DNA from: Pseudomonadota bacterium
GTDB taxonomy: Bacteria; Pseudomonadota; Gammaproteobacteria; Burkholderiales; Methylophilaceae
Reading direction: 5' to 3'
Length of the DNA stretch: 42,439 nucleotides
Assembly (NCBI GenBank): GCA_027621535.1
Contig: JAQCBB010000007.1
Coordinates: 1 to 42,439 of the forward strand
Of this stretch, positions 24,969 through 42,390 are shown piece by piece; the stretch's first letter is position 1, and each line of letters opens with the position of its first letter. The notes under the pieces are model-generated. The model made no database searches, was not told where the DNA came from, and worked only from the letters and a program-made list of their open reading frames with translations. A program made the position numbers and the translations under genes.

Positions 24969-24980
24969 GAAAATTATAAA

Positions 24981-25019: not shown

Positions 25020-25025
25020 CATTCA

Positions 25026-26402: not shown

Positions 26403-27463
26403 TGCGTCCCTTAAAAGCCTTAATAAATCTTGATAATGCTCGGCAAAATTTAGCCTATATCAAGTCACTAGCCCCTTCTTCAAAAATTATGGCCACCTTG
26501 AAAGCCAATGCTTATGGACATGGCCTGACATTAATGGCCACCGCTTTTAATGATGCCGATGCATTTTCTGTGTTAACAATTGATGATGCCATTGAGCTCC
26601 GTGAAGTAGGTTTTGATAAAAAGATACTCTTGCTGGAGGGGCCTTTTGATCAGGATGATCTAAATATCGCCGCTGCATATCATTTTGATATGGTCATTCA
26701 CAGTGACTATCAACTGGCTTTAATTCGACAACTCGATAAGCACAAAAAAATAAACATTCATTTAAAAGTGAATACAGGCATGAACCGCTTAGGATTTACT
26801 GTAGAAAAAGTCCAAAAAATTTATCAGCAGTTAAAAAATGATACCCGGATTGATGAAATTATTTTTATGTCTCATTTTGCTAACGCGGACATCGAAAACG
26901 GCACCGATTTGCAAGCTAAGCACATTGATACTTTATTAAAAACGTTTAATGAGCCTTTTTCTGTTGCCAACTCAGCAGCCATAGTTAATCAAATTAGTAC
27001 ACATTTAGACTGGGTGAGACCCGGTATTATGCTCTATGGAGCAACTCCTTTTGACCGAGATTTGCCTCTAGAGCAACTTAAACCCGTCATGACTTTGCGT
27101 TCAGAAATTATTGCGATTCAAGACATAAAAAAAGGTGAGGGCGTCGGCTACGGCTATGAATTTATAGCACCCAAAGATATGCGCATTGGCATTGTGGCTT
27201 GTGGCTATGCGGATGGCTATCCCAGGCATGCTGCTTCAGGAACACCCATTATGGTTGATGGTATTCAAACCAAAACAGTAGGGCGAGTCTCCATGGACAT
27301 GATTGCAGTGGATATTAACGACATCCCTAATGTAAATTATGGATCCAGTGTTGAGCTGTGGGGTGAAAACTTAAGTGTTGATCTAGTGGCCCATCATGCG
27401 AAGACTGTGAGTTACGAGCTCTTATGTGCAGTATCTTCTGCATCCCGAGTTTATTATGGTTAG
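26402..27463 (+). CDS. alr: Alanine racemase
   Basis: PLP enzyme converting L- to D-alanine for peptidoglycan. The 353 residues show the PLP lysine K34 in ATLKANAYGHG and the catalytic tyrosine region GEGVGYGYEF (Y250), plus ACGYADGYPR. It is the middle gene of dnaB-alr-radA, sharing one base with dnaB and overlapping radA by 8 bases. Confidence 0.96.
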   Translation: MRPLKALINLDNARQNLAYIKSLAPSSKIMATLKANAYGHGLTLMATAFNDADAFSVLTIDDAIELREVGFDKKILLLEGPFDQDDLNIAAAYHFDMVIHSDYQLALIRQLDKHKKINIHLKVNTGMNRLGFTVEKVQKIYQQLKNDTRIDEIIFMSHFANADIENGTDLQAKHIDTLLKTFNEPFSVANSAAIVNQISTHLDWVRPGIMLYGATPFDRDLPLEQLKPVMTLRSEIIAIQDIKKGEGVGYGYEFIAPKDMRIGIVACGYADGYPRHAASGTPIMVDGIQTKTVGRVSMDMIAVDINDIPNVNYGSSVELWGENLSVDLVAHHAKTVSYELLCAVSSASRVYYG

Positions 27464-28820
27464 AACAAAAGTCCTTTATCAGTGTGTTCAATGTGGCGGA
27501 CAGTCCTCAAAATGGCAAGGGCAGTGCCCTCATTGTTTGGAATGGAATTGTTTAGAGGAGTTGGTGACCAGCACCTCAAATAATCGGTTTCAAGCGCTGA
27601 ATAAAAAATCTTCCCTAGTTAGAATTAATGATGTTGAGGTGAATGAAATTCTAAGACATCCCACCAATAACCATGAGCTTGATCGTGTTTTAGGAGGAGG
27701 GCTTGTTCCTGGGGGGGTCACTTTAATTGGGGGCGATCCAGGCATCGGAAAATCAACGTTATTGATTCAGGCGCTGGCCTCGCTCACCCAAAATCCTAGT
27801 TCAGCATTAAATGTGATTTATGTCACGGGTGAGGAGTCGATTGAGCAAATCGCGATGCGCGCTCGACGATTAGATTTAGAAGTATCAGATCTGTTTGCCG
27901 TATCGGAAATCAATTTAACGCAGATTATAAAAATTATTGAAAAAGAGAAGCCCAAAGTCGTTGTCATCGACTCCATTCAAACTCTGTTTTCGGATGAGCT
28001 GACTTCTGCTCCAGGCTCTGTTTCACAAGTGAGGGAATGTGCTGCTCAGTTAACGAGGTTAGCCAAAGCCAATGAGATTAGTATGATTTTGGTGGGCCAT
28101 GTTACCAAGGATGGCTCGATCGCAGGACCCAGAGTGTTGGAACATATAGTTGATACCGTTTTATATTTTGAGGGCGAGGCTAACTCGTCGTATCGATTAA
28201 TCCGCTCCATTAAAAATAGATATGGCGCTGTGAATGAGTTAGGGATCTATGCCATGACTGAAAAGGGATTAAAAGAGATCTTAAACCCGTCGGCCATTTT
28301 TTTATCTGCCACATCATTTGAAACCTCGGGGTCAGTCATCACCGTGATGCAAGAGGGGACCCGACCGATCTTGATTGAAATTCAAGCTTTAGTGGACGAA
28401 TCAAAACAAGCGTCACCGAAACGACTCTCCGTGGGCTTAGAAAATAACCGGATTGCGATGATTTTAGCCGTGCTTAACAAGCATCTTAATTTATCTTGTC
28501 ATAATCATGATGTCTTTTTAAATGTAGTAGGCGGGGTAAAAATTTCTGAACCCGGGGTTGACCTTGCCGTGCTGGTTGCCATTGCCTCATCGCTTCAAGA
28601 GCAACCTGTCACTAAAAAAACTATTATCTTTGGTGAAATTGGTCTTGGAGGAGAAGTACGACCGGTGGTTCGGGGTCAGGAACGCATTCAAGAAGCTAAG
28701 AAATTAGGTTTTGAGCGCTTTATTTTGCCTCGAAAAAATCTCCCAAAAAAAGCCATAGAAGGGGTAGAATTATTAGCCGTTGATGATGTAAACTCCGCCT
28801 TGAAGATGATTTTTAATTAA
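27456..28820 (+). CDS. radA: DNA repair protein RadA
   Basis: Branch-migration helicase-like protein of recombination, 454 residues from the ATG at 27456; a longer in-frame start at 27426 lies inside alr and would add ten residues unlike the family. Domain order is a C4 zinc finger (C10-x2-C13, C24-x2-C27), a RecA-like core with Walker A GGDPGIGKST (92-101), the RadA signature KNRYG (253-257; the usual form is KNRFG) and a Lon-like C-terminal domain. It ends the dnaB-alr-radA operon. Confidence 0.96.
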   Translation: MVRTKVLYQCVQCGGQSSKWQGQCPHCLEWNCLEELVTSTSNNRFQALNKKSSLVRINDVEVNEILRHPTNNHELDRVLGGGLVPGGVTLIGGDPGIGKSTLLIQALASLTQNPSSALNVIYVTGEESIEQIAMRARRLDLEVSDLFAVSEINLTQIIKIIEKEKPKVVVIDSIQTLFSDELTSAPGSVSQVRECAAQLTRLAKANEISMILVGHVTKDGSIAGPRVLEHIVDTVLYFEGEANSSYRLIRSIKNRYGAVNELGIYAMTEKGLKEILNPSAIFLSATSFETSGSVITVMQEGTRPILIEIQALVDESKQASPKRLSVGLENNRIAMILAVLNKHLNLSCHNHDVFLNVVGGVKISEPGVDLAVLVAIASSLQEQPVTKKTIIFGEIGLGGEVRPVVRGQERIQEAKKLGFERFILPRKNLPKKAIEGVELLAVDDVNSALKMIFN

Positions 28821-28858
28821 TAATAAAATACATTAAATAAATTTAATAAAATATTGAT

Positions 28859-29701
28859 TTAATTATATTTATTTATAAAAGTTAACACAATAATCCAAAT
28901 TTTTCTAAGCACCGTGAGCTGTGTGCGTTCATTTAAAATATTGGCTAAATCACCTTCCTCAATTCTCAATAAAAGGTCGTAATAAATATTGCCCATCATC
29001 AATCCCGGTAATTGGTTAAACCGATCTTCTTGAGGCAGAAGAGTAAAAGCTTTTGCATAATAATCTTTGGCTCGATCGATTTGATACTGCATCAATTTAA
29101 TTAATTTGTCATTTTTGGCACATTGTTTGAGATCCATTTCATCGATTTGATATTTTTTTAAATCATCCAGGGGGATGTAAATACGATTTCGACGAATATC
29201 TTCGCCGACATCACGAATAATATTGGTTAGCTGCAGGGCAATGCCGAGGTTATGCGCATAATCTAAGGTTTTTTTATCCTGAAAACCAAAGATCTGTGCG
29301 GATAAAATACCTACAACGGAAGCCGCTCGATAGGTATAAAGCTGTAATTGTTTAAAGTCTTCATATCGGTTGAAATCCAGATCCATTTTCATCCCATCAA
29401 TAATTTCAATGAAATAATTCTGATTCAGATCAAACTGTTTTATAGCAAGATGCAGGGCTTTAGTTACCGGATGTTGCGGATTGTCTTGATATAAATTATT
29501 AATTTCTGTCAGCCACCAATTCAGCTTGGTTAAGCCGACTGCATATTCTTGGCAATGATCTGCGATGTCATCAACCTCTCGACAAAAGGCATAAAGGGCG
29601 ATCAAGGCTCTTTTTTTTGGTGTGGATAAAAACAAAAAGGGTAGAGCAAAATTTGTTTTGCTGTCTTTAAGTTTTTGTATGCAATACTGGTTTGGGGTCA
29701 T
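28859..29701 (-). CDS. hpnD: Presqualene diphosphate synthase HpnD
   Basis: Trans-isoprenyl diphosphate synthase-like enzyme, 280 residues. Start MTPNQYCIQK and the block ALYAFCREVDDIAD (Asp motif at 44-48), then ALQLTNIIRDVGEDIRRNRI (D164, D168), are typical of HpnD. It condenses two farnesyl diphosphates to presqualene diphosphate, the first step of the HpnCDE squalene route. It overlaps hpnC by 4 bases and is convergent with radA. Phytoene synthase is a relative, but the partner gene HpnC makes HpnD the better call. Confidence 0.9.
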   Translation of the reverse strand: MTPNQYCIQKLKDSKTNFALPFLFLSTPKKRALIALYAFCREVDDIADHCQEYAVGLTKLNWWLTEINNLYQDNPQHPVTKALHLAIKQFDLNQNYFIEIIDGMKMDLDFNRYEDFKQLQLYTYRAASVVGILSAQIFGFQDKKTLDYAHNLGIALQLTNIIRDVGEDIRRNRIYIPLDDLKKYQIDEMDLKQCAKNDKLIKLMQYQIDRAKDYYAKAFTLLPQEDRFNQLPGLMMGNIYYDLLLRIEEGDLANILNERTQLTVLRKIWIIVLTFINKYN

Positions 29702-30540
29702 TTGATTATCATACCCTTAATTAATACAACTCCCCAATCTACCAAGGTCATCTTGTTGTTTTTAAATGGATTTTTAGATTTTTTTAGCTTTTGATTTAGG
29801 TGTAAACCAGTGGCCACCAACACCCGCATCTGAAGATTAAAGCGAACAGAAGGAGTATGCATGATCCCTTTCCCTAGGATAAGCTTTTGTTCTATTTTTT
29901 TCGTCCAATAATGCTTAAATGCATGCCAGTTTGGATTAAATTGATCAAATTGATCATGGGTGAGCTTGAGTTTGAATTTTTTTTGTAAGGCGATCGGTAA
30001 GTACACCCGATTTTTTTTGAAATCTTCTTGAATGTCCTGCAGCATGTCTATCCTGGCAAAGGCGTTGCAAATACAATCTGAGTATTGCCTATTCATCGGT
30101 TGATCTAAGTGATTGATCTGAAGATAGATGCGACCAGCTGAATGAGCTGCTTTTTGATAATAGGCATCCAATTCTTTTTCATTTAAATAGCTTTTTTTCT
30201 TAGTGTCTTGCAGGAACGCATCGAGAAGATCATCAAAATATTGGGTATTAAGGTTAAATTGGCGAATAATTTTTTGCAGATCTTGAAATAAGGGTATGTT
30301 TGGATGGCCATCTGTTTTGATGCGCTCCAGTTGCGATTTCATTTGTTGTAACAAGCTTTGTCTATGTGTTTTCGAGGATGCGCCTTCATCCGCAAGATCA
30401 TCTCCAATGCGAGCGAAAGCATAGACAGTGGCTACTGCGTGCCTTAATTCTCTCGAAAGAAATCGAGCGATCGGAAAATTCTCGTAGTGCTGATTAATTA
30501 TTAGATTTTCTTGAAGGCTTGTATAATTTATTTTCATCAT
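29698..30540 (-). CDS. hpnC: Hydroxysqualene synthase HpnC
   Basis: Squalene/phytoene synthase superfamily protein, 280 residues. HYENFPIARFL and AFARIGDDLADE (Asp motif 47-52) match HpnC, with a second acidic motif MLQDIQEDF (166-174) before KKNRVYLP. It converts presqualene diphosphate to hydroxysqualene; HpnE then reduces it to squalene. HpnE is not in this window. The start has two adjacent ATGs (30540 and 30537). A -10-like TATAAT (minus strand, 30553-30548) is only 7 bases upstream of the ATG. Confidence 0.88.
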   Translation of the reverse strand: MMKINYTSLQENLIINQHYENFPIARFLSRELRHAVATVYAFARIGDDLADEGASSKTHRQSLLQQMKSQLERIKTDGHPNIPLFQDLQKIIRQFNLNTQYFDDLLDAFLQDTKKKSYLNEKELDAYYQKAAHSAGRIYLQINHLDQPMNRQYSDCICNAFARIDMLQDIQEDFKKNRVYLPIALQKKFKLKLTHDQFDQFNPNWHAFKHYWTKKIEQKLILGKGIMHTPSVRFNLQMRVLVATGLHLNQKLKKSKNPFKNNKMTLVDWGVVLIKGMIIK

Positions 30541-30568
30541 CTTTTTTATTATATAAGGTAAATTTATT

Positions 30569-31315
30569 TTGCTAGCAATTATTGGAGGCTCTGGCTTATG
30601 CCAAATTGACGGGTTAGAAATTATTCGACGTGAGATTGTCAGGACTCCATATGGACAGCCTTCAGAACCAATTATTTTTGGGATGCTTGGTGGTAAAGAG
30701 GTGATTTTTTTGGCGAGACACGGATCAAATCATTCCATAGCGCCGCATAATATCAACTACCGTGCGAACATCTGGGCGCTGCATGAAGTTGGTGCAAAGT
30801 CTGTTATTTCAATCGCATCTGTGGGCTCAATTCCAAATAATATAAAAGTGGGCGATTTTGTGGTGCCCCACCAAATATTGGATTACACGTATGGCCGCAG
30901 TAATACCTTCTTTGAAGGTAAAGAGAATCCAGTAAAACACATTGATTTTACTCATCCCTATGATATGAGTTTGCGTGAACTGATTATAAAAACCATTACC
31001 CAATTAAATTTAAGAGTGACCCCTTTAGGGGTATATGCAGCAACCCAAGGGCCGAGGTTAGAAACGGCAGCAGAAATTGATCGTTATGAAAAAGACGGGG
31101 CTAACGTGGTGGGGATGACCGGTATGCCAGAGGCGTGCTTGGCAAGAGAACTTGAATTAAGTTATGTTGCCATATGCCCAGTGGCGAATCATGCGGCCGG
31201 CAGGGGAGAAAGTGCAGAAGGAATTTCATCGGCCATGCTCAATCAAAGCTCCAAGCAAACGATTAAAAATACAATCACAATTTTGCAACATTTAGTAAAA
31301 GCCTATGGCTATTAG
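30569..31315 (+). CDS. S-methyl-5'-thioinosine (or thioadenosine) phosphorylase
   Basis: Purine nucleoside phosphorylase-family enzyme of 248 residues that recycles the methylthio nucleoside left by polyamine synthesis. [30 protein letters not shown] and [13 protein letters not shown] are family motifs. In MTA-specific enzymes the purine N7/N6 site is an Asp; here VANHAAG puts Asn at 207, as in Pseudomonas methylthioinosine phosphorylase, so the 6-oxopurine substrate is more likely. The start is TTG at 30569 with AAGGT 9 bases upstream. It diverges from hpnC across 28 bases and overlaps def by 11. Confidence 0.87.
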
Positions 31316-31820
31316 GGACATCTTAAAAATGGGTAATCCTGACCTTCTGAAGGTCAGTGAGCCGATCACTGACTTTAATGATCCGGAGCTTTTCTCACTC
31401 ATCGATGACATGATCGAAACCATGAAAGCGAATGACGGTGCCGGATTGGCTGCTCCACAGATTGCGGTATTCAAGCGATTAGTGATTTTTGGGTTTGATC
31501 AAAATGATCGATATCCGGATGCCGAAGCGGTTCCATTTACAGTTTTAATTAATCCCGAGATTAAGCCGCTTTCTGATGAGCTTGAAAACGGTTGGGAGGG
31601 ATGTCTCTCAGTTCCAGGTTTAAGAGGGGTAGTCCCTCGGTTTAAAAAAATTCACTACCAGGGTTTTGATCAATATGGCGACACTATCAGCAGGACAGTT
31701 GAAGATTTTCATGCGCGAGTGGTTCAGCATGAGTGCGATCATTTAGACGGTATACTTTACCCCATGAAAATTGAAGACTATCGATATTTTGGATTTCATG
31801 AAGAAATCTTTAAAGAGTAG
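31305..31820 (+). CDS. def: Peptide deformylase
   Basis: Metalloenzyme removing the N-formyl group from new proteins, 171 residues. All three motifs are intact: GAGLAAPQ (45-52), EGCLS (98-102, metal ligand C100) and HECDH (142-146, catalytic E143). It overlaps the phosphorylase gene and is followed by tRNA-Ser after 38 bases. The context is not the usual def-fmt pair, so it may be a second copy; only this one is visible here. Confidence 0.95.
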
Positions 31821-31821
31821 T

Positions 31822-31849
31822 TTGGTTGAAGGAAAACCTATGATAAAAT
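31822..31849 (+). promoter_or_regulatory. Probable promoter of tRNA-Ser
   Basis: TTGGTT (31822-31827), a 16-base spacer and TAAAAT (31844-31849) end 9 bases before the tRNA-Ser 5' end, right after the def stop codon. Confidence 0.5.
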
Positions 31850-31858
31850 TTGCTCGAC

Positions 31859-31948
31859 GGAAGAGTGGCAGAGCGGTTTAATGCACCGGTCTTGAAAACC
31901 GACGTGGGTTCGCGCCCACCGTGAGTTCGAATCTCACCTCTTCCGCCA
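31859..31948 (+). tRNA. tRNA-Ser (TGA)
   Basis: A 90-base class II tRNA with a long variable arm. The acceptor stem GGAAGAG/CTCTTCC, anticodon loop CTTGAAA with anticodon TGA, and T-arm GAGTTCGAATCTC are present; G73 and CCA are encoded. It decodes UCA and related serine codons. Confidence 0.97.
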
Positions 31949-32087
31949 TTACATTTTAAACATAATCGTCTGTATACCCTATATATCATGCCTGAGTATG
32001 CCAACACTACTTTTGCAGTGCATCAAGTTGAGAACTTGAGTAAACTTGTGATTTTAACGACTCTTTTAGAAAAATTTTATTTCAATT

Positions 32088-33227
32088 ATGTTCAATAAGA
32101 AGTTTTTAATTTTTCTTATACTCTTGTTTCCCTATTTCGCTTCGAGTGAAGAGCCTAAAATAAGTAACTATAAAAAATATAAAGACACCGCTACCCAATT
32201 CAGACTTGAACAACTTAATGTGAACCTTGAACATCCCTGGGCTGTTAGTTTTATCAAAGACAATGAATTGATTGTGACCGAAAAAGGGGGAGGCTTGTTT
32301 AAATATAACCTCGATGACGGATCCAAAACAGCAATTAAGCATAAGATTCCTCATATCGCATACAAATCAGGGGGTGCGCAAGGGGGTTTGCTCGATGTGT
32401 ACCATAACCCTCTGGATGACAATCTCTATTTCACCTACAGCCATGATGTCGATGGAACTAATTCCAGTTCAGCCATTGCGAGGGGAAAGTTGGTGCATGA
32501 TGAGATTATAAATTTCGAGCAATTGTTGATTGCCGAGCCCAAATTAAAAGAAAATCGACATTATGGGTCCCGCATTGTCATTAGAAAAAATCAACTGTAT
32601 GCCGGATTTGGTGAAAGAGGAGGCGAGATGATTGCGCAAGACCCTCAAACCCACCCTGGAAGTATTATTCGCATTCACACCGACGGCACAATTCCAAGTG
32701 ATAATCCGCATTACACTAGCCACCCTGATTGGTTGCCGGAGATTTATGCGATAGGTGTTCGAAATCCTCAAGGCATCACATTAACCCCAGACAAACAACA
32801 CATCCTCTTTTCGAGTCACGGACCCAGGGGTGGCGATCATATCGCGATGGCAGACTCAGGCGCTAATTTTGGCTGGAAACACATTTCCTGGGGAGGTTCT
32901 GAGTATACTGGATTGAGTATAGGGCAGGCAGCATTTGACCTTCGATTTGCAAGCCCTATGCTCAGCTGGGTTCCGTCCATGGCGATTAGCAGCATACAAT
33001 TTTATGAGGGGAGCGTGTTTCCGGAATGGGTGGGGGATCTCATCGTCTGCTCTTTAAATGGAGAGGCACTAATTCGAATTGATTTTGAAAATGGCATGAT
33101 AGTGGGCGAGGAGATTATTTTTAAAAATAAAATAGGACGAATTAGAGATTTTGACATTGATAAAGATGGTAATATTTACCTTATTAGTGATGCCAGAAAA
33201 TCTGCCATCTGGAAATTAACCCGTTAA
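32088..33227 (+). CDS. PQQ-dependent sugar dehydrogenase-like exported protein
   Basis: A 379-residue six-bladed beta-propeller of the soluble glucose/aldose dehydrogenase (YliI/Asd) family. A signal peptide (about 1-20, cut near FASS) sends it to the periplasm. LEHPWAVSF, QGGLLDVYHNP, RHYGSRIV (H158, matching the catalytic His of the family), RNPQGIT and SHGPRGGDH are typical blocks. It probably oxidises a sugar with PQQ and passes electrons to the respiratory chain; the substrate is unknown. The next gene, also an exported propeller, follows after 18 bases. Confidence 0.88.
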   Translation: MFNKKFLIFLILLFPYFASSEEPKISNYKKYKDTATQFRLEQLNVNLEHPWAVSFIKDNELIVTEKGGGLFKYNLDDGSKTAIKHKIPHIAYKSGGAQGGLLDVYHNPLDDNLYFTYSHDVDGTNSSSAIARGKLVHDEIINFEQLLIAEPKLKENRHYGSRIVIRKNQLYAGFGERGGEMIAQDPQTHPGSIIRIHTDGTIPSDNPHYTSHPDWLPEIYAIGVRNPQGITLTPDKQHILFSSHGPRGGDHIAMADSGANFGWKHISWGGSEYTGLSIGQAAFDLRFASPMLSWVPSMAISSIQFYEGSVFPEWVGDLIVCSLNGEALIRIDFENGMIVGEEIIFKNKIGRIRDFDIDKDGNIYLISDARKSAIWKLTR

Positions 33228-33245
33228 CTAACAAGAAGGATACCA

Positions 33246-34064
33246 ATGATGATTCGAAGTTTACTCTTTACTTTACTCTGTTTACCGATAACTCTTGTTG
33301 CACAGACGGTTATGGATGGTTTTTTAATGCCAGAATCAGTGGTCCAAGATCAACAAGGAAATATTTACGTGTCTGAAATTGGCGAACGCGATGTGGATGG
33401 CGATGGAAAGATTACAAAAATTGATCCCCAAGGAAACCGTTCAGCCCTAGCCGAAGGCCTCTATGATCCAAAAGGCCTGGTTCTGTTTAAAGATAAATTA
33501 TATGTAACGGATCGCGATGCCGTGATTGAAGTAAATATCAACGATGGAGCATATGGAGTTTTTGCCGGAACGATGAGTTTTCCCAAGAGCCCAGTGTTCT
33601 TAAATGACATCGATGTTGATGACCAAGGCAATCTTTATGTGTCCGACTCTGGTGATTTTAAATCAACGGGCTTTATATTTAAAATTAAACCAACAGGCGA
33701 GGTAAGCTTGGTGCTTGAGGATCAAAGAGATGTGATCAAAGCACCCAATGGACTTTTGATTGAAGGCGATAAACTTTTTATTTTAGATTGGGGCGGGGAG
33801 TTTTTTAAAGCCAATCTCAAAACTAACAAGGTTAAAAAAATTGCTGAGGGGGTTAATGGAGGTGACGGCATTGCCAAGAAAGGCAAAATAATTTATTTAA
33901 GCAGTTGGCTCGAAGGCAAAATTTATACAGTGGTACAAGGTAAAGTAAGCGTGATTCAAGAGGGTTATGAAGCGGCTGCAGACATTACTTTATCAAATAA
34001 CAAGGGTCAGCTTCTAATTCCTGATATGAAGGCCGGGACACTAACCATTATGGATCTTCAGTAA
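33246..34064 (+). CDS. Exported NHL/SMP-30-like beta-propeller protein
   Basis: A 272-residue protein with a signal peptide (about 1-19, ending LVAQ) and repeated propeller strands such as MPESVVQDQQGNIYVSE, DPKGLVLFKDKLYVTD and NDIDVDDQGNLYVSDSG. The fold resembles SMP-30/gluconolactonase or NHL proteins. AGAAGGA lies 6-12 bases upstream of the ATG at 33246 (a second ATG follows directly). It is cotranscribed with the PQQ dehydrogenase-like gene, so a lactonase or accessory role toward the same substrate is plausible but not shown. It is convergent with the peroxiredoxin, 4 bases away. Confidence 0.75.
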   Translation: MMIRSLLFTLLCLPITLVAQTVMDGFLMPESVVQDQQGNIYVSEIGERDVDGDGKITKIDPQGNRSALAEGLYDPKGLVLFKDKLYVTDRDAVIEVNINDGAYGVFAGTMSFPKSPVFLNDIDVDDQGNLYVSDSGDFKSTGFIFKIKPTGEVSLVLEDQRDVIKAPNGLLIEGDKLFILDWGGEFFKANLKTNKVKKIAEGVNGGDGIAKKGKIIYLSSWLEGKIYTVVQGKVSVIQEGYEAAADITLSNNKGQLLIPDMKAGTLTIMDLQ

Positions 34065-34068
34065 GCAT

Positions 34069-34890
34069 TTATTTATTATTAATTCGGCTCTTGTTTCTGT
34101 TTTTATTGCCTTTAAAGAAACCGGGTTGCTCGATCATCCTTAAATAGTCTTGATATTGAGTAAAGTCATCAGTGCCATAATGCTCTTTGATCATATCATT
34201 GGAAATATACGTTGGAACAATCACGTCATCACCCGGCTGCCAATTTGCTGGAGTTGACACTTTATATTTTGCAGCAACTTGAAGGGCGTCAATAGTTCTG
34301 ATAATTTCATCAAAATTACGTCCTACGTGCATCGGGTAAGTTAAGATGGTTTGTATTTTCTTTTCGGCATCAATTATAAATACAGATCGGATGGTGGCTT
34401 TATGTTTAATTCCAAACGCACTCTCATTCGGATTCGCATTAGGATGAATCATGCCGAAGAGCTTCGCAATATCCATGGAGGTGTCGGCAATAATCGGATA
34501 ATTTACATCAGGACGGTCATCAAATAATGATGTGATTTTATTTAATGAGTTCTCAAGTGATAACTCACGTTTGATTTCATCTTTAAAGCTATTCACATGC
34601 GGTATCCATTCTTTGTGATCTTCAAGAGAGTCAACACTCAGGCCTAATAATTTCACATTTCGAGATTCAAAATCAGGTTGAAGGTAGGCAACTTGAGCTA
34701 ATTCAGTGGTGCACACGGCGGTAAAGTCTCCTGGGTGTGAAAAGAGCACCACCCAATGGTTTTGAGACCAATTATAAAAGTTTAATTTGCCTTGAGTCGT
34801 TGATGCGTTAAAGTTGGGTGCGGTATCTCCAATTTGAAACGCATATAAAGGCATGCAAAAAAATACAAGGGTTACTAAAAAAAATTTCAT
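34069..34890 (-). CDS. Exported 1-Cys peroxiredoxin (Prx6 type)
   Basis: Peroxidase of 273 residues. The active site is SHPGDFTAVCTTELA with peroxidatic C60 (P53-x3-T57-x2-C60); no other cysteine occurs in the mature chain, hence the 1-Cys class. The C-terminal half (TPANWQPGDDVIVP, about 214-227) is the Prx6 dimerisation domain. A clear signal peptide (1-17, cut after LYA) is unusual, since Prx6 proteins are mostly cytoplasmic, and the chain ends in a basic tail (KGNKNRNKSRINNK). It overlaps the DUF6356 gene by 4 bases. Confidence 0.9.
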   Translation of the reverse strand: MKFFLVTLVFFCMPLYAFQIGDTAPNFNASTTQGKLNFYNWSQNHWVVLFSHPGDFTAVCTTELAQVAYLQPDFESRNVKLLGLSVDSLEDHKEWIPHVNSFKDEIKRELSLENSLNKITSLFDDRPDVNYPIIADTSMDIAKLFGMIHPNANPNESAFGIKHKATIRSVFIIDAEKKIQTILTYPMHVGRNFDEIIRTIDALQVAAKYKVSTPANWQPGDDVIVPTYISNDMIKEHYGTDDFTQYQDYLRMIEQPGFFKGNKNRNKSRINNK

Positions 34891-35090
34891 TTTAAATTTC
34901 TATGTTGTTGAGAGTCTGCTGTTAATTTTTGTACAATCTTTTGACTGACAAATGGAAACAGCGATGGAATAAAAGCGTGAATAATAGAGGTTATTCCAGC
35001 ATACAGCAATAAAAACCCAGCTTTAGAGGCAAAGGTAAAATGATTCCAATAGGTTTTGTTTGCTTCTGTTAAATGTTTTTTAAATAACAT
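34887..35090 (-). CDS. Small membrane protein, DUF6356-like
   Basis: A 67-residue protein with one or two hydrophobic stretches (GFLLLYAGITSIIHAFIPSL, about 25-45). The pattern of a N-terminal FxxHLxEA segment, YWNHF and a IHAFxPxLFP core resembles the DUF6356 family of small alpha- and betaproteobacterial proteins, which have no known function. It is the first gene of a pair with the exported peroxiredoxin and diverges from cutA. Confidence 0.72.
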   Translation of the reverse strand: MLFKKHLTEANKTYWNHFTFASKAGFLLLYAGITSIIHAFIPSLFPFVSQKIVQKLTADSQQHRNLK

Positions 35091-35137
35091 ATGATTAAAA
35101 CTATAATGTAATCAGTCAACTTTGAATAGGTATTATA

Positions 35138-35455
35138 GTGTTTAATTGTGCAAAAATTATTATAACCACCTTACCGAAATCAAAAGTGAAGATATTTGTA
35201 AATAGACTATTATCGAAAAAGTTAGTCGCTTGTGTGAATATTCTTCATAATGTTGAATCGGTGTATTGGTGGCAGGAAAAGATCGTGACAGACAAAGAAA
35301 GTATATTGCTCATCAAGACGACGAAAAATAATATTAGAAACATAAAAAACTTCTTTACTGAGCATCATCCCTATGCAGTTCCTGAGTTGTTGATTCAGGA
35401 TGTTAAAGGGTCCGACAATTATATGAATTGGTTAAAACAGGAGACAAAAAAGTGA
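35138..35455 (+). CDS. cutA: CutA divalent-cation tolerance protein
   Basis: A trimeric PII-like protein of 105 residues. LLSKKLVACVNIL, VESVYWWQEKIVTDKESILLIKT and EHHPYAVPELL are family blocks. CutA was linked to copper tolerance in E. coli, but its true role is still unclear. The start is GTG at 35138 (no ATG is near). Its TGA overlaps the GTG of the next small gene. Confidence 0.93.
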   Translation: MFNCAKIIITTLPKSKVKIFVNRLLSKKLVACVNILHNVESVYWWQEKIVTDKESILLIKTTKNNIRNIKNFFTEHHPYAVPELLIQDVKGSDNYMNWLKQETKK

Positions 35456-35613
35456 CCCTAAAATATTTTATTGATTACCCCCAAGAGCGAATTGAAGAGG
35501 GAGTAAATAATTATCAGTGTTCATATTGCAAAGTTTCAACACTTGAAATTAATGGACTTTTAGAAAATCACAAGAGGAACTGTAAATACCGCTTAGAAAA
35601 AGAAACCACCTAA
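35452..35613 (+). CDS. Small putative zinc-finger protein, unknown function
   Basis: A 53-residue protein starting at GTG 35452 (GTGA overlap with the cutA stop), with an AGGAG site at about 35439-35443. It holds a likely zinc-binding motif, C-x2-C (CSYC) then an H-x4-C (HKRNC), in about 23 residues. I do not recognise the family. The tight coupling to cutA and the following gene supports its being real. A metal-related role is only suggested by the motif and the neighbour. Confidence 0.6.
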   Translation: MTLKYFIDYPQERIEEGVNNYQCSYCKVSTLEINGLLENHKRNCKYRLEKETT

Positions 35614-35849
35614 TGACTGAAACTTTATTAAAAGCAGTTCAGTTTGCTCTTGATGGACAGTGGGATCAGTCTCATCAAATTGTCCAAGAAATGCATACGA
35701 ATCACTCAAACTGGATTCATGCGGTATTACATAAAATAGAAGGTGATGAATCCAACAGCAGGTATTGGTATACACAAACAGATCATGACTACTTAGACTT
35801 TGATGATCCCAATCAGGAACTAAGAGCTATTCAATCAGAACTTACTTGA
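35613..35849 (+). CDS. Small conserved hypothetical protein
   Basis: A 78-residue soluble protein, acidic, with the stretch [13 protein letters not shown] and SRYWYTQ, which resembles a widespread uncharacterised proteobacterial family. The ATG overlaps the preceding stop by one base, so three genes (cutA, the zinc-finger protein and this one) form a chain. No function can be given. Its 3' end overlaps prpD on the other strand by 8 bases. Confidence 0.72.
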
Positions 35850-37302
35850 CGAATAAGTCTACGTATTCGTTCACTGGGGTTGATTCTAACTTTGTATAAT
35901 CAAGATTTAAATTTAATATTTTCGCTGCATGCTCTGGATTAAATTCTCGATTTAGATTTTTAGAAAATTTTTTAATCAACTCAGGAATACCTTCCGCGCG
36001 TCTACGACGATGACCAATCGGGTATTCAACCGTTATTTTTTCTGAATGAGTCCCATCTTGATAAAATATCTGTAGAGCATTAGCAATTGAACGTTTGCTC
36101 GGATCTAGATAATCTTGAGTAAATTGTTTATTTTCAATACATTGCATTTTTGCTCTCAATGCATCAATCCGAGGATCATGAGCTACAGCATCCTCATAAT
36201 CTTGAGCGGTCAGATTTCCCTTAAGTAGTCCAATGGTGGCCATGTACTGAATACAATGATCTCGATCAGCAGGGTTATTGAGAGGTCCAGTTTTATCAAT
36301 AATTCTTATCGCGGATTCATGTGTTGTGATTTCAATTCGATCAATGTGATTAATTTTTTCCAACGTATCTATTTTGTTAACATGATCAGGATGAAGTTGA
36401 AGCGCACATTCGACCGCGGTCTGTGCATGAAACTCTGCAGGAAATGAAATCTTAAAGAGCACATTTTCCATCACATAAGATCCATATGGTTGGTTGATTG
36501 CAAAGGGTTTGCCTTTAAATAAAACATCATAAAAGCCCCACGTTTTTGCAGTTAATGCCGAGGGGTATCCCATTTCGCCTTTCATCACCATCAATGCTAA
36601 CCTGACTGCACGGCTGGTCGCATCACCTGCGGCCCATGATTTTCTTGAGCCTGTATTAGGTGCGTGTCGATAGGTGCGAAGACTTTGACCATCCAGCCAG
36701 GCATTCGATACCGCATCAATTATTTGCTCAAAACTAGCCCCAAGCATTTTAGCAACCACAGCAGTCGAAGCAATTTTTACTAAAACTACATGATCAAGAC
36801 CCACACGGTTAAAACTATTTTCTAAAGCAATGACCCCTTGGATTTCATGCGCTTTGACCATGGCAACAAGCACATCCCGCATCAACAGAGGTGTTTTTCC
36901 CTGGGCAATACGTGTTCGGGATAGCCAATCTGCTACTGCCAAAATCCCACCTAAATTATCGGACGGGTGTCCCCATTCGGCGGCAAGCCAGGTGTCATTA
37001 AAATCTAGCCAGCGGATCATAGCACCAATATTAAATGCAGCATTGATCGGGTCAAGCTGGAAACTTGTTCCTGGTACTTTTGCTCCATGAGGTACCTGTG
37101 TTCCAGGAACAATAGGCCCTAAAAGTTTTGTACAGGCTGGATAGCTTAAGGCTTCAAGACCGCAGCCTAAGCTATCCATTAAGCAATAGCGAGCGGTATC
37201 TAAAGCTTCTGTGCTGTCAATGAGATAATCATTTACATAGGTTGCAATATCAGCAATGACCGGATCTGGTCCAGGCCGAACATTTGAAATGTAAGATGAC
37301 AT
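35842..37302 (-). CDS. prpD: 2-methylcitrate dehydratase PrpD
   Basis: MmgE/PrpD-family dehydratase of 486 residues, the usual length for Prp[21 protein letters not shown] and [17 protein letters not shown], with RWLDFNDTW near the N-terminus, are PrpD blocks. It dehydrates 2-methylcitrate toward 2-methylaconitate/2-methylisocitrate in the methylcitrate cycle. It is the last gene of the six-gene operon, 19 bases after prpC. No acnD or prpF is present, so hydration to 2-methylisocitrate would need an aconitase elsewhere. Confidence 0.93.
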
Positions 37303-37321
37303 GTGCTACTTAACCTTTCTT

Positions 37322-38473
37322 TTATCTTTGATTAATCGGGGTGTAGGATCTGTTTTCTGGACCTGTGTATTCAGCATTGGGTCGAATAATTTTATTATCA
37401 ATACGTTGCTCAATGATATGAGCCGCCCAACCTGTGGTTCTGGAAATGACAAAAATAGGGGTAAACATTGCCGTGGGGATGCCCATTAAATGATAACTGG
37501 ATGCACTGTACCAATCGAGATTCGGGAACATTTTCTTTTCTTCCCACATCACAGATTCTATTCTTTTTGATATCTCGAATAAGGTACTATTTCCTTGATC
37601 TTCTGAGAGTGATTTTGAGACTGATTTAATGCTTTCATTTCTCGGGTCACCAATGGTGTAAACGGGATGACCAAATCCAATAATAATTTCTTTACGACTC
37701 ATACGATCACGAATATCTTTTTCGGCTTCATCTGCATTTTGATATCGGGAGATGATTTCCATGGCAGCTTCGTTTGCTCCACCATGCTTTGGTCCGCGAA
37801 GAGCGCCAATCGCACCAGTGATAGCAGAATAGATATCGGATAAGGTTCCAGAGATTACCCGCGATGTAAAGGTTGACGCATTGAACTCATGCTCTGCATA
37901 GAGCACCAAAGATGTATTCATTGCTTTTTCATGTAACTCCGATGGCGGCTTTCCATGAAGTAAATATAAAAAATGTCCTGCAATTGAATCCATGTCAGAA
38001 GTACATTCAATTTTTTTATTGTTGTGTGAATAGTGATACCAATAGATGAGCATAGAGCCAAAACAAGAGATGAGTCGATCGGCAATATTTTTTGTCTGCT
38101 CAATATTACGATCTTCAGCTTCCTGTTCTATTGTTCCGAGCATTGAGCAGCCTGTCCGAAGAACGTCCATAGGATGGGCATTTTTTGGGATCTGTTCGAG
38201 CATAGATTTTACAGGTTCTGGTAGATCTCTGAGTTTTTGAAGTTTGTTTTTATATTGATTCAGCTGATCTTGGGTTGGAAGTTCTCCATAAATTAACAAA
38301 TAAGCTACTTCTTCAAAATTTGAATATTTGGCTAAATCTAAAATATCATACCCGCGATAATGTAAGTCATTTCCAGTATGACCCACGGTACAAACCGCAG
38401 TCGTTCCTGCATTGACTCCTGCTAAAACCACCCCTTTTTTTACTTTTTTCTCTGTTACTGGTGTTGTATTCAT
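37322..38473 (-). CDS. prpC: 2-methylcitrate synthase PrpC
   Basis: Citrate synthase-family enzyme of 383 residues. Catalytic residues are seen in [10 protein letters not shown] (His), [14 protein letters not shown] (His) and DWYSASSYH (Asp). It condenses propionyl-CoA with oxaloacetate; the short chain and the GDPRN loop fit the methylcitrate type rather than the larger Gram-negative citrate synthase. AGGAG precedes the ATG by 5 bases. It may also have citrate synthase activity. It lies between prpB and prpD. Confidence 0.93.
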
Positions 38474-38491
38474 AAAATCTCCTACTCGTAT

Positions 38492-39364
38492 TTATTTTTC
38501 TTGCTTAAAAAGCTCATCTAATTTTTTTTCATAATCATGGTAGTTTAAGAAATCATAGAGTTCATTTCTCGTTTGCATTAACTCGATCACATTTTTTTGA
38601 GTCCCATCTTTACGAACAGCTTCATAGACTGATAAGGCCGCTTTATTCATAGCTCGAAAGGCACTCAATGGATAAAGAATTAAGCTGACATTTGCGCTGG
38701 CGAGTTCATCCTTTGTAAATAGGGGAGTGGATCCAAATTCGGTAATATTAGCTAATACCGGAACTTTGACAGCATCAGAAAATTGCTCGTACATGGAGAG
38801 TTCGGTCATTGCTTCTGGAAAAATCATATCTGCACCCGCCTCAACATAAGCGCAGGCTCTATCAATTGCACTATTTAATCCTTCAACAGCGAGAGCATCA
38901 GTTCGGGCCATAATAATAAAATTGGGATCAGTTTTTGCGTCTACAGCGGCTTTAATGCGATCAACCATTTCGGATTGTGAAACAATAGCTTTATTGGGGC
39001 GATGTCCACAACGTTTCGATTGAACTTGATCTTCAATGTGAGCGGCAGCAGCACCGGCTTTGATCACAGATCGAATTGTCCTCGCGATATTTAGCGCACC
39101 TCCAAAGCCAGTATCAATGTCAACAAGCAGAGGGGTGTCGGTAACGTCTGTAATGCGTCGAATATCAATCAATACATCCTCTAATGTAGATATTCCAAGA
39201 TCAGGGATGCCCAATGAGCCAGCTGCTACCCCCCCACCCGATAGATATAAAGCTTTAAATCCAGACTGAGTTGCTAGTAATGCATGATAAGCATTAATAG
39301 CTCCAATAACCTGTAGAGGTTTTTCTTGTGATAGGGCTTGTTTAAATTTTTTTCCTGCCGACAT
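38492..39364 (-). CDS. prpB: 2-methylisocitrate lyase PrpB
   Basis: Isocitrate lyase/PEP mutase-family enzyme of 290 residues. The active-site signature KRCGHRPNK and the blocks [17 protein letters not shown] and [16 protein letters not shown] identify PrpB. It splits 2-methylisocitrate into pyruvate and succinate. It follows the Mcl-like lyase by 12 bases. Some PrpB enzymes cleave isocitrate weakly, which would give glyoxylate, the co-substrate of the neighbouring lyases; this is a possibility, not a visible property. Confidence 0.94.
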
Positions 39365-39376
39365 TTATTTAACTTT

Positions 39377-40366
39377 CTATGAAAAAAAACGTTGATTGGC
39401 TTCGTCTGGAATATCTTGACCGGTGAGTTTAGCCGTTTGTAGAATCTCCCAAAAATAGCGATAGGTAGCTCGATCATGCAATTCACCCTTAAATTGAATA
39501 GGTCCCCAATCGGCATCTTGTGCCAGAATTAAAATTTCAGAACCATCTTGAATCTCTTCATAATTGGGTTTCATCGCATCAACAATAGCGGTAATTTGTG
39601 TAGGATAGATACTCCACATACGCATAAATCCAAATTCATCTCGAGCGCGCTTGGCGTCTGCAAAGGTTGTTTCACTATTTTTTAGATCCAAGGTGACGTT
39701 GTGAGCCGGTACAATTCCATTAGCAATCGCTGCGGCAACCACCTCTGTTTTTGCACGTGCTAATAATTTATGCTCAAATTGACCAGGGCTTCTCATTGCT
39801 GAGGCGGGAATGGCCCCGTGATGTCCGCTGACAAAATCCATTAATCCAAAATCAAGCACTTGAAGCCAGGGGAGTTTTGCAATTTCATGCACCTGCGCTA
39901 AAGCTCCATGGGTTTCGATTAAGATATGAATCGGAATTTCTCGACTTATATGATGATCTTTCGCTACCTTTTGAATGTAAGCAATGATTTCTTCTGGCTG
40001 GGCCACATTAGTCGATTTAGGAATAGTAATGTAACTTAGTATCTCACCAGCACCTGCAACAAGAATATCAATATCTTTTTTCCAATGGGGATGGGTGTAG
40101 TCATGTATTCTACATCCGGCCATATTATGTTTATTCAGTTCTGAATGGAGAACTCTTACAATCATTTCAGCATGAGCTTGCTCCTGCCCAGCAGCCGCAC
40201 CATCTTCGCAGTCACAGGTAATGTTAAAAATGGGGCCTAAGGTATCTTGTAAGCTCAAGGCTTTTGAAATTAATTTTTCACTCCCTGCAAAATGCTCACA
40301 GGTAGGGATAATTGGAAAAGGTTTTTCTCCGAAAAATAATGCATCATTTGGATGTGTCAAAGCCAT
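39377..40366 (-). CDS. HpcH/HpaI-family CoA-ester lyase, L-malyl-CoA/beta-methylmalyl-CoA lyase-like
   Basis: A 329-residue TIM-barrel lyase. CDCEDGA (51-57), R86, the PK pair at 116-117, E151 in HILIETHG and D177 in GLMDF match the metal- and CoA-binding positions of the family. It is longer than CitE and resembles a class of lyases found beside mesaconyl-CoA hydratase, which reversibly join glyoxylate with propionyl-CoA or acetyl-CoA. It lies between mch and prpB with gaps of 2 and 12 bases, and AAGGA precedes its ATG. The exact substrate preference is inferred from context. Confidence 0.78.
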   Translation of the reverse strand: MALTHPNDALFFGEKPFPIIPTCEHFAGSEKLISKALSLQDTLGPIFNITCDCEDGAAAGQEQAHAEMIVRVLHSELNKHNMAGCRIHDYTHPHWKKDIDILVAGAGEILSYITIPKSTNVAQPEEIIAYIQKVAKDHHISREIPIHILIETHGALAQVHEIAKLPWLQVLDFGLMDFVSGHHGAIPASAMRSPGQFEHKLLARAKTEVVAAAIANGIVPAHNVTLDLKNSETTFADAKRARDEFGFMRMWSIYPTQITAIVDAMKPNYEEIQDGSEILILAQDADWGPIQFKGELHDRATYRYFWEILQTAKLTGQDIPDEANQRFFS

Positions 40367-40368
40367 AA

Positions 40369-41430
40369 TTATTTCCTTTTGGGAATCAAAACAAAGTAAT
40401 CAATATCGAGAACGACATTTGTGTTATAAATTTTCTTGCCATTTTTTTCTACAGCGATTTCAGATATTTTTGAACTTGGCTTATTCTTAAATCCAAATTG
40501 CCTTAATCTTAAAACACCGGCACCATTTAATTGTGGCAATTCGTGCTTACCAATAATTTCAGTCCGACAATAAATAGTATCACTGGCAAAAGTTGGATTA
40601 GTGTGTACTCCACTATTCACGCCGAGTATTTGTATAGCATTCTCTAAACCTTCAAACGACAATGAGCGACATAATGAAATAATATGACCCCCGTAAATTA
40701 ATCTTTTTTTAAATGGTGTGTCTTTCATCATATGAGCATCAAAGTGTAACTTTGCATTATTCTGATAAAGTTTAGTAGCCAAGGTATGATCAGTTTCATC
40801 AATTGTTATACCTGAGGAATGATTCAATACTTCGCCAATCTGATAATCATCAAATAATTTATCTGAACCCGTGTCAGCTAAGTCTAGATGAGAAAACACC
40901 ATCCCTGTACGCTCAATACAAGAGAGATCCGCGCTAGACGGAAGAGCCTCAGGTATTTGCTCAATAATGTTAGCGTTCTCATCTTTTTTTGGAACCATGA
41001 CCCAGCGAATCCAGCTGAGGAGCTCTTCACCATGTTGATTAAAAGTTGAGGATTGGACGTAAACAACTCCAGTTGATTTATTTGAATTTTCTTTTAAACC
41101 GATGATTTTTGATCGAGAGGTAATCGTGTCGCCAACATAAGCAGGATTTTTAAACTGGATGTTGGCATAACCTAAATTAGCCACAGCATTTAACGAAATA
41201 TCATTCACCGTTCTTCCGAAAGCAATATGGAAAAGTAATAAATCATCAATTGGAATAGATTTGAAATTAACTGCTTGAGCAGTTTTTAATGAACAATGTA
41301 ATGGATTTCGATTTCCTATTAAAGCCAAATACAGTGTGGTATCGCCTTCTGTAATTGTTCTTGGAATCGCATGATTATATATTTGACCCGGTGAAAAATT
41401 TTCTAAATAATTTCCTTGATGAGTGTTCAT
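40369..41430 (-). CDS. mch: Mesaconyl-CoA hydratase (beta-methylmalyl-CoA dehydratase), MaoC type
   Basis: Double-hotdog MaoC-family enzyme of 353 residues, close to the length of Rhodobacter and Chloroflexus Mch (about 343). PRTITEGDTTLYLALIG, DDLLLFHIAFGRTVNDISLN, TGVVYVQS and YGGHIISLCRSLSFEGLENA are highly characteristic of Mch. It interconverts beta-methylmalyl-CoA and mesaconyl-C1-CoA, a step of the ethylmalonyl-CoA pathway and 3-hydroxypropionate bicycle. It overlaps the upstream CitE-like gene by 4 bases (ATGA) and is 2 bases from the next lyase. Confidence 0.9.
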   Translation of the reverse strand: MNTHQGNYLENFSPGQIYNHAIPRTITEGDTTLYLALIGNRNPLHCSLKTAQAVNFKSIPIDDLLLFHIAFGRTVNDISLNAVANLGYANIQFKNPAYVGDTITSRSKIIGLKENSNKSTGVVYVQSSTFNQHGEELLSWIRWVMVPKKDENANIIEQIPEALPSSADLSCIERTGMVFSHLDLADTGSDKLFDDYQIGEVLNHSSGITIDETDHTLATKLYQNNAKLHFDAHMMKDTPFKKRLIYGGHIISLCRSLSFEGLENAIQILGVNSGVHTNPTFASDTIYCRTEIIGKHELPQLNGAGVLRLRQFGFKNKPSSKISEIAVEKNGKKIYNTNVVLDIDYFVLIPKRK

Positions 41431-42308
41431 GTATTGTTTTCCAGTTCTTCCATCATTTCATATTGGACCAATAGTCTTTTTGCTGCCGTGACGTGGTGAT
41501 GTTCAACCAGTTTATCATCAACTACGACCGTTCCTCTGCCAGAAGCATTGGCTTTTGCTAAACCACTAATAATGGCTTTAGCTTGTTCAATTTCTGATGG
41601 TTTTGGCGTGTAGGCATCATTCGCATAAGCCAGTTGATCTGGATGAACTAGAGATTTTCCATCAAAACCCATATCACGTCCCATTCGGCAGGCATACTCA
41701 AATGATACCGTATCTTTTAAATTACTGTGAATCCCATCAATAACCGATAACCCGTAGGCACGAGCTGCCAAAATAACCATGGATAAACTGGTGGTTAATG
41801 CGATACGATCTCGAGTAGTGCGTGCATACATCTGTGAAATTAAATCAGATGTTGCCAATACCATGCATATAATTCGATCAGATGCACTCGCAATTTCTTT
41901 TGCATTTAAAACGGCTAAAGGACTTTCAATCATGACCATCACAGAGATGTCTTTTCCGCCAGATGCATCTAAATGCTGAATGCAGTTTAAGATATCTTCT
42001 TTTGATTCAATGTTAGGAAATAATATAGCGTCAGGTTTTAGTGGTGCTACAGCAATAACGTCATCCAATCCCCACGGTGAGTCAAAATCGTTAACCCGTA
42101 CAACAACTTCCCTTTTTCCGTATACATTTTGTTTTAATATTTTAACTACGTTGTTACGAGATTGAATTTTTGCATCGAGCAGAATAGGGTCCCCAAGATC
42201 CAAGATGAGAGTATCAGCACAGATTGATTTTGCTTTTTCCAGATATCGTTTATTGCACCCTGGAACATAAAGCATGGATCTTCTGGGTCTATAAGAGTTT
42301 GTATTCAT
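41427..42308 (-). CDS. CitE-like CoA-ester lyase/thioesterase, malyl-CoA thioesterase (Mcl2)-like
   Basis: A 293-residue TIM-barrel protein, first in the operon. RRSMLYVPG, VMIESPLAVLNAKEIA (E128), ATSDL (D155), TTRDRIAL and MGFDGKSLVHPDQ resemble Rhodobacter (3S)-malyl-CoA thioesterase (Mcl2) and citramalyl-CoA lyases. Two usually conserved positions differ: DLED is DLGD (G39) and the usual PK before the ES is PN (N99). Malyl-CoA hydrolysis to malate, or citramalyl-CoA cleavage, are the main options. No Shine-Dalgarno is visible; a strong promoter lies about 30 bases upstream. Confidence 0.72.
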   Translation of the reverse strand: MNTNSYRPRRSMLYVPGCNKRYLEKAKSICADTLILDLGDPILLDAKIQSRNNVVKILKQNVYGKREVVVRVNDFDSPWGLDDVIAVAPLKPDAILFPNIESKEDILNCIQHLDASGGKDISVMVMIESPLAVLNAKEIASASDRIICMVLATSDLISQMYARTTRDRIALTTSLSMVILAARAYGLSVIDGIHSNLKDTVSFEYACRMGRDMGFDGKSLVHPDQLAYANDAYTPKPSEIEQAKAIISGLAKANASGRGTVVVDDKLVEHHHVTAAKRLLVQYEMMEELENNT

Positions 42309-42338: not shown

Positions 42339-42390
42339 ATTTTAATAAACTTAAAAATTATGTCAATAAATAATTTAGTCTTATATAAGA
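42339..42390 (-). promoter_or_regulatory. Promoter and candidate operator of the mch-prp operon
   Basis: Read on the minus strand, TTGACA (42366-42361, perfect -35), 16 bases and TAAAAT (42344-42339) form a strong sigma-70 promoter; transcription would start near 42332, 24 bases before the first gene. Twelve bases further upstream is a perfect 12-bp palindrome, TCTTATATAAGA (42379-42390), a possible regulator site. The regulator is not in the window. Confidence 0.6.

Follow-up and report, generated by a model that had tools for sequence, protein, structure and literature searches.

A mesaconyl-C1-CoA hydratase-family protein and CitE-like proteins in the methylcitrate gene cluster of a Methylophilaceae genome: a possible route for oxidation of a C5 dicarboxylate

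We analyzed JAQCBB010000007.1 (assembly GCA_027621535.1; 42,439 nucleotides, hereafter the window), a whole contig (C3 in our numbering) of a Methylophilaceae genome of 1.33 Mb in 84 contigs, and focused on an operon of six minus-strand genes that joins coenzyme A (CoA) ester enzymes to the methylcitrate cycle. The first gene, citE (41427..42308; cyl1 in print), encodes a CitE-superfamily protein (PF03328, 143 bits) that is probably a member of the (3S)-malyl-CoA thioesterase group. It is followed by mch (40369..41430; maoC in print), assigned to the mesaconyl-C1-CoA hydratase/beta-methylmalyl-CoA dehydratase family from phmmer matches and active-site residues, and by mcl (39377..40366; cyl2 in print), whose product is a CitE-superfamily lyase and, from its profile and catalytic residues, a probable beta-methylmalyl-CoA (malyl-CoA) lyase. 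The last three genes are prpB (2-methylisocitrate lyase, 38492..39364), prpC (2-methylcitrate synthase, 37322..38473) and prpD (2-methylcitrate dehydratase, 35842..37302). The open reading frame list confirmed the six tightly packed genes described in an earlier note on this DNA, with intergenic distances of -4, 2, 12, 18 and 19 bases. PrpB, PrpC and PrpD are NCBIfam equivalogs, each above its cut-off (NF008455, 547 bits, cut-off 353; NF009006, 675 bits, cut-off 550; NF006943, 875 bits, cut-off 575), and CitE, Mch and Mcl were above no NCBIfam cut-off in the scan of window proteins. The earlier note was right about the gene families, including its description of the first gene as Mcl2-like, and about a connection with the closing steps of the ethylmalonyl-CoA and 3-hydroxypropionate routes. 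The operon starts at the contig edge, only 131 bases of the contig lying upstream of citE. Since the contig stops so close to this gene, genes that the earlier note did not see may lie elsewhere.

A second contig of the same genome (C35) carries, in this order, genes for a GntR-family regulator, a malic-enzyme-like protein, SdhC, SdhD, SdhA, SdhB, a third CitE-like lyase of 374 aa (CitE374), an acyl-CoA ligase of 540 aa and a class I fumarase. The complete genome of Methylophilaceae bacterium LSUCC0401 has genes of the C35 type head to head with citE in a 21-kb locus reaching into the ligase; ten proteins were compared and showed 85-97% identity in the same order. The 95 bases upstream of the GntR gene on C35 align to positions 1-94 of the 221-base GntR-citE gap of LSUCC0401, and positions 90-221 of that gap are matched by the 131-base stretch between citE and the contig edge in the window. 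Because both contig ends map side by side on this gap, C35 and the window contig adjoin; the operon and the C35 genes make up the two arms of a divergon. The malic-enzyme-like gene (411 aa) covers the first half of a 764-position model. None of the 25 NCBIfam matches listed for the ligase reaches its cut-off, and prpE is not among these models, so that by model the ligase is not prpE. The earlier note had seen no prpE; the divergent arm adds this acyl-CoA ligase to the genes then in view.

The gene cluster is already in print and is not new, contrary to the suggestion that this gene set was undescribed in one operon. Under 'methylcitric acid cycle', PMC4109929 lists prpCBD, cyl1, maoC, cyl2, gntR, mdh, sdhABCD, cyl3, prpE, fum and can; the Methylophilaceae cluster is marked present in 9 of 9 columns, and the clusters are termed strongly conserved. 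The cluster is also discussed in PMC3728764 (2013), where the role of the Methylotenera methylcitrate genes is given as unknown though they are highly expressed in situ, and in PMC6794327, where the pathway is reported in OM43 and missing from 'Ca. Methylopumilus', and the Methylophilaceae are described as lacking the ethylmalonyl-CoA pathway, the serine cycle and the glyoxylate shunt. In the available portions of these three papers the gene content is the same as here with no difference seen, and the names cyl1, maoC, cyl2, cyl3, prpE and mdh come with no reaction given. Our models depart from two of these names, since the printed 'prpE' is the ligase that is not prpE and the printed 'mdh' of the divergent arm is malic-enzyme-like. 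In the OM43 strain NB0046, prpBCD transcripts rose with high-molecular-weight organic matter, as did those of two genes with neighboring numbers, for an HpcH/HpaI lyase and for a CoA ligase (PMC5120137); we infer these to be cyl3 and the ligase of the divergon. A literature search judged mostly by titles and abstract openings found no defined role for the cluster. What is new here is the evidence from families, residues, operator and gene inventory.

Mch was matched over its full length by 4e3e, a MaoC dehydratase (phmmer, 340 bits), and by 8hgn, titled 'Beta-methylmalyl-CoA dehydratase' (316 bits). Eight residues around the substrate in this hydratase family are named by PMC10164722, and Mch has all eight (F71, S79, N85, R142, N224, H229, Y246 and G247), each position being kept in 87-89 of the 89 rows (88 distinct sequences) of our alignment. 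The gene called maoC is a member of the mesaconyl-C1-CoA hydratase family with an intact predicted active site, an assignment that is new here. The same comparisons bear on the possibility that the operon degrades itaconate by an itaconyl-CoA hydratase and an (S)-citramalyl-CoA lyase. The RipB and RipC models head the NCBIfam matches of Mch and Mcl and come second for CitE, whose good fold matches include citramalyl-CoA lyases, and succinyl-CoA synthetase can activate itaconate (PMC12290011). Nevertheless, all three scores are far too low and leave the curated RipB and RipC cut-offs unreached (124/340, 48/375 and 133/375 bits/cut-off), Mch aligns at full length with beta-methylmalyl-CoA dehydratases, haloarchaeal Mch is inactive with itaconyl-CoAs (PMC5592240), and the source genome has no class III CoA transferase. 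We consider itaconate degradation very improbable.

The Mcl profile (A1) scored 603 bits with 3qqw and 429 bits with 3r4i, compared to 63 bits with the malyl-CoA lyase 4l9y. The first two, the closest relatives of Mcl with a solved structure, carry the title citrate lyase, and PMC3832036 calls them CitE-like, several such structures being without known function. The catalytic set of the superfamily (Asp42, Glu44, Asp45, Arg76, Glu141, Asp168 and Asp299 in R. sphaeroides numbering; PMC3832036) is complete in Mcl, with all seven positions kept in 116-118 of 118 rows (116 distinct sequences). In CitE374 these residues are kept in 56-57 of 57 rows (56 distinct sequences, one unread letter), the fold prediction is poor (mean predicted local distance difference test score, pLDDT, 60), and no plasmid match above 28% identity was found among the 20 of 35 records listed. 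Mcl and CitE374 branch apart from a Ruegeria protein annotated as L-malyl-CoA/beta-methylmalyl-CoA lyase, and we propose for both only a mode of working similar to that of malyl-CoA or beta-methylmalyl-CoA lyases.

CitE differs from these lyases at two catalytic positions. It has Glu269 in place of the lyase Asp299 in 78 of the 78 rows (76 distinct sequences), a change tied to the malyl-CoA thioesterase cluster (PMC3832036). The protein grouped (100/99) with four plasmid-encoded proteins, one of them the Ruegeria 'CoA ester lyase', whose gene lies close to one for a MaoC protein (41% identity to Mch) and to those for SdhC, an SdhD-type protein and SdhA. Its structure model (pLDDT 84.8) has malyl-CoA lyases and citramalyl-CoA lyases alike as best fold matches, which fail to separate the two identities. 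CitE probably belongs to the (3S)-malyl-CoA thioesterase group, as judged from the Glu at the Asp299 position, but it does not retain Glu44, to which we return below.

We evaluated the conservation of the operon in the best 80 of at least 588 relatives found when named genomes were scanned with the Mcl alignment. As the best-scoring relatives, these loci are enriched in close kin; they are mostly named Methylophilaceae/Methylotenera, Gallionella/Sideroxydans and Methylophaga, and many end early at contig ends. Mch was present in all 80 and adjoined Mcl in 79, CitE adjoined Mch in 75 and PrpB came after Mcl in 65, bearing out the synteny that the earlier note had proposed as a check. The six-gene arrangement is not due to chance. 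The same loci contained CitE374 (56), the ligase (56), the malic enzyme (57) and SdhA (45), and mdh in none. Nine of them (L062, L085, L093, L099, L100, L105, L113, L114 and L117) have GntR, citE, mch, mcl, the ligase and CitE374 with no prpB in the available flank (173 bases in L113), and in the four of the nine whose genomes were searched the PrpB-type genes are located elsewhere.

In three loci the Mch-Mcl pair is separate from prp genes and stands next to candidate activating genes. In a gammaproteobacterial metagenome-assembled genome (L119) the ligase (55% identity) lies directly beside Mch and Mcl points the other way; the 21-kb locus yielded neither citE nor a third lyase nor any prp gene. 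A plasmid of C. oxalaticus (L188:875-6981) has genes for a CoA transferase, an MmgE/PrpD protein and an acyl-CoA dehydrogenase facing MaoC (46% to Mch) and Mcl (64%); the best NCBIfam match of the transferase is succinyl-CoA:mesaconate CoA-transferase at 459 bits, below the cut-off of 700. Apart from the presence of Mch and Mcl, this arrangement resembles the itaconate/methylsuccinate cluster of PMC12290011, and it suggests by analogy a C1-CoA route for methylsuccinate. On a Sphingobium plasmid, a gene annotated as alpha-methylacyl-CoA racemase, with weak matches to CoA-transferase models, precedes mch and Mcl. The ligase directly beside Mch without prp genes, and a CoA transferase in its place in C. 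oxalaticus, suggest that the ligase may be the activator of the substrate of Mch.

Mcl also occurs without Mch. In a sample of 120 genomes of the order, 39 had Mcl, of which 8 were Mch-linked; among the rest we compared 30 loci, one being a second copy in G109 (G052 and G096 were left out). In these 30 loci mdh was directly upstream of Mcl in 26, and sdhA (28), aconitase (27), GntR (22) and prpB (8) were found at the counts given; the mdh genes of two loci (L039 and L150, the latter Mch-less) were confirmed by model. Elsewhere, then, the Mcl family sits behind mdh in a divergon of tricarboxylic acid (TCA) cycle genes, which is new here. The window operon looks like such a divergon with mdh swapped for citE-mch, and L039 (mdh-mch-mcl-prpB-prpC-prpD) looks like an in-between form. 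We dropped the idea that Mcl is a part of the methylcitrate cycle as such in view of the 8 of 30 loci with prpB and the 26 of 30 with mdh. PrpB was over its cut-off in 26 of the 39 Mcl genomes, a weak link (P 0.02), and in 8 of 8 genomes with Mch-linked Mcl, against a background of 61 of 120 (P 0.0035, uncorrected for kinship). Nested inside the Mcl proteins of the TCA type is a clade (99/97) made up of those linked to Mch and two encoded on Cupriavidus plasmids, one of which has no adjoining Mch.

These observations lend some weight to an alternative in which Mcl and CitE are side enzymes of the TCA cycle, clearing malyl-CoA- or methylmalyl-CoA-like side products and traveling with a divergon controlled by SdhR, and in which the operon is a TCA locus that has been rearranged and mainly burns propionate by the methylcitrate cycle; PMC6794327 interprets the cluster as propionate oxidation. 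The gene neighborhoods of the Mch-less loci, the nesting of the clade and the palindrome described below, exact in 19 of the 30, are all in its favor. Left unexplained are an intact-site mesaconyl-CoA hydratase joined to Mcl, the Mch-Mcl pair in plasmid clusters, and the ligase and third lyase, neither of which was found in any of the 30 Mch-less stretches (9.9-17 kb). We regard this alternative as unlikely, albeit one to be taken seriously.

The palindrome TCTTATATAAGA (42379..42390, exact match, no strand) lies upstream of citE and corresponds to the core of the SdhR motif given by PMC4494728, which cites Suvorova et al. 2012. It is the sole match in the window at up to 1 mismatch, though at least one match was also obtained in 26 of 100 shuffles. 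The exact core is present in 61 of 64 GntR-citE gaps of related loci (uncorrected for kinship), and the best palindrome in each mononucleotide shuffle of these gaps (n=20) reached 2 or 3. A second copy lies upstream of GntR on C35. The core and a GntR-family gene beside sdh are common to this divergon and the SdhR regulon (PMC4494728), but unlike the SdhR motif, the outer half-sites are weak, with 8 of 26 mismatches in the window copy and 6 of 26 in the C35 copy. Across the 80 loci, the SdhR 26-mer was found within 3 mismatches in 53, whereas the best of 40 shuffled loci had 7; among the 30 TCA-type loci, the exact core was sometimes outside the GntR gap and the 26-mer occurred at up to 4 mismatches in 15. 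With a palindromic operator-like sequence between its two arms, the divergon is probably under SdhR (GntR family).

We inventoried 14 genomes, all chosen for the Mch-Mcl pair: the source genome, 10 named relatives and 3 others of the order. Class III CoA transferases and malate synthase were each lacking in 11 of the 14, and the methylmalonyl-CoA mutase family (PF01642) and isocitrate lyases other than PrpB-type partial matches in 13, the source genome being included each time. The search agreed with the earlier note on the lack of mct. In the source genome it found no true isocitrate lyase and no malate synthase, and it turned up an AcnB-like aconitase (contig C41, 863-aa frame). PrpC, PrpD, aconitase and PrpB, the members of the methylcitrate cycle, are thus all present; GltA is separate from PrpC, there is a single MaoC protein, and a glycolate-oxidase-type domain was seen only within a 1288-aa frame. 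A PrpB-type match and a close-by second citrate synthase gene were found in 14 of 14 genomes, and four metagenome-assembled genomes (Gallionella, Sideroxydans, Gallionellales and Nitrosomonadales) have PrpB-type and citrate synthase genes away from the operon.

The inventory bears on two further proposals. The earlier note had suggested an improvised glyoxylate shunt, in which PrpC, PrpD and PrpB act on citrate and isocitrate and Mcl plus a CitE thioesterase replace malate synthase. The absence of the true shunt enzymes noted above and the thioesterase-type residue of CitE agree with it, and the part in which a lyase and a thioesterase stand in for malate synthase fits. The full shunt is weakened by the separate GltA and aconitase, by a PrpB far above its cut-off and by the lack of any role for Mch, and we find it improbable. 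The PrpB loop reads KRCGHR, which we take to be a mark of methylisocitrate lyases and which also argues against the full shunt. Still less probable, and hardly to be expected, is assimilation of glyoxylate and propionyl-CoA to acetyl-CoA and pyruvate on the pattern of the 3-hydroxypropionate bi-cycle in its second cycle. Mch and the lyases come from fitting families, but there is no class III CoA transferase (Mct) in the 11 genomes mentioned, and the single MaoC protein of the source genome means that it has no second hydratase of that family.

The direction of Mch can be considered in the same way. Without a class III CoA transferase, a mutase or malate synthase, with one MaoC protein and with a glycolate-oxidase-type domain only in the long frame, the genome shows no outlet for mesaconyl-C1-CoA that would be formed from glyoxylate, so that cleavage to propionyl-CoA and glyoxylate is the likelier direction. 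We tentatively propose, with somewhat less than even confidence, that the operon oxidizes a C5 dicarboxylate arriving as mesaconyl-C1-CoA, by way of propionyl-CoA and the methylcitrate cycle. Of the two readings offered by the earlier note, the catabolic one is in our view the likelier. Mesaconate or a close relative would be activated by the adenosine monophosphate (AMP)-forming ligase of the other arm. After hydration by Mch, Mcl would cleave beta-methylmalyl-CoA to propionyl-CoA and glyoxylate; PrpC, PrpD, AcnB and PrpB would convert propionyl-CoA and oxaloacetate to pyruvate and succinate; and succinate dehydrogenase, fumarase and malic enzyme would take succinate to malate and pyruvate. 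Glyoxylate and acetyl-CoA would be condensed to malyl-CoA by Mcl or the third lyase, and malyl-CoA hydrolyzed to malate by the thioesterase-type CitE. Since class I fumarases hydrate mesaconate as well (PMC4682846), the fumarase of C35 might add a mesaconate branch. The more complete version is an SdhR-controlled mesaconate-type route, in which the methylcitrate cycle would be supplied by the ligase, Mch and a CitE-like lyase of TCA origin, and a lyase acting with a thioesterase would stand in for malate synthase. This version is doubtful, though it deserves some credence.

The proposed route would resemble the methylaspartate cycle in its lower half, or the ethylmalonyl-CoA pathway at its end, except that carboxylation of propionyl-CoA would give way to the methylcitrate cycle. 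The haloarchaeal methylaspartate cycle uses a class III CoA transferase and carboxylation (PMC5592240), whereas here there are a ligase and the methylcitrate cycle. The end of the ethylmalonyl-CoA pathway has the same three enzyme types (Mch, malyl-CoA lyase and malyl-CoA thioesterase), and the Ruegeria locus, with mdh, CoA ester lyase and MaoC genes near those for SdhC, an SdhD-type protein and SdhA, is comparable. Unlike that pathway, the mutase family is absent from the source genome (ccr was outside the search) and the lyase is from another CitE branch.

Several points weigh against this C5 dicarboxylate route. With haloarchaeal Mch the equilibrium favors beta-methylmalyl-CoA, yet dehydration is far more efficient than hydration (PMC5592240), and this conflict means that kinetics leave the direction unsettled. 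CitE has Gly39 at the position of Glu44 in 76 of 78 rows, a residue called absolutely conserved, and also varies at Asp45 (70 of 78), Glu141 (75 of 78) and Asp168 (76 of 78), so that it may be altered or inactive. The ligase, named prpE in print, might act on propionate. Only three of the 8 Mch-linked genomes in the order sample showed the ligase and third lyase (the source genome on C35, G014 and G080); neither was found in the available stretches of G011, G022, G069 and G113, and the G109 locus is incomplete. Genomes G029 and G075 have a full-length Mch without this Mcl, and the prevalence of Mch-less Mcl in TCA divergons means that the first substrate need not be beta-methylmalyl-CoA. In L119, a butyryl-CoA:acetate-type CoA transferase is encoded nearby (292 bits, cut-off 675).

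If this more complete version of the C5 dicarboxylate route is correct, it would open a multicarbon diet to methylotrophs that are supposed to be obligate and whose TCA cycle is incomplete, and it would account for the response of the methylcitrate genes to natural organic matter. With maoC read as a gene for a mesaconyl-C1-CoA hydratase and cyl1 as one for a thioesterase-like protein, the question of the methylcitrate role becomes one of named assays and substrates. The results also draw attention to a CitE-like family, with solved structures of no assigned function (3qqw and 3r4i), inside the TCA divergons of many members of the order, which is probably Burkholderiales to judge from named plasmid hits.

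Other features of the locus were less distinctive. A sigma-70-like promoter (TTGACA-16-TAAAAT, 11 of 12 matches) lies upstream of citE at 42339..42366 on the minus strand; promoter-like sites in this upstream region were no more frequent than in shuffles (22 versus 22.7), and the same was true of sites in the terminator scan. AcsA genes accompany the operon in some relatives: Methylobacillus L1B has an AcsA-type acetate-CoA ligase upstream of citE (by model; L083:1783-3762), Pseudomethylobacillus has a like-looking candidate in the same place (L090:3404-5383), and LSUCC0135 has AcsA downstream of prpD (by model; L058:14737-16695). The GC content of the window is 0.32-0.37 over positions 1-24000 and 0.37-0.42 over 24001-42000, bar a dip to 0.35 at 34-36 kb. 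A neighboring pair of squalene/phytoene synthase-like genes, recognized by eye, lies at 28859-30540.

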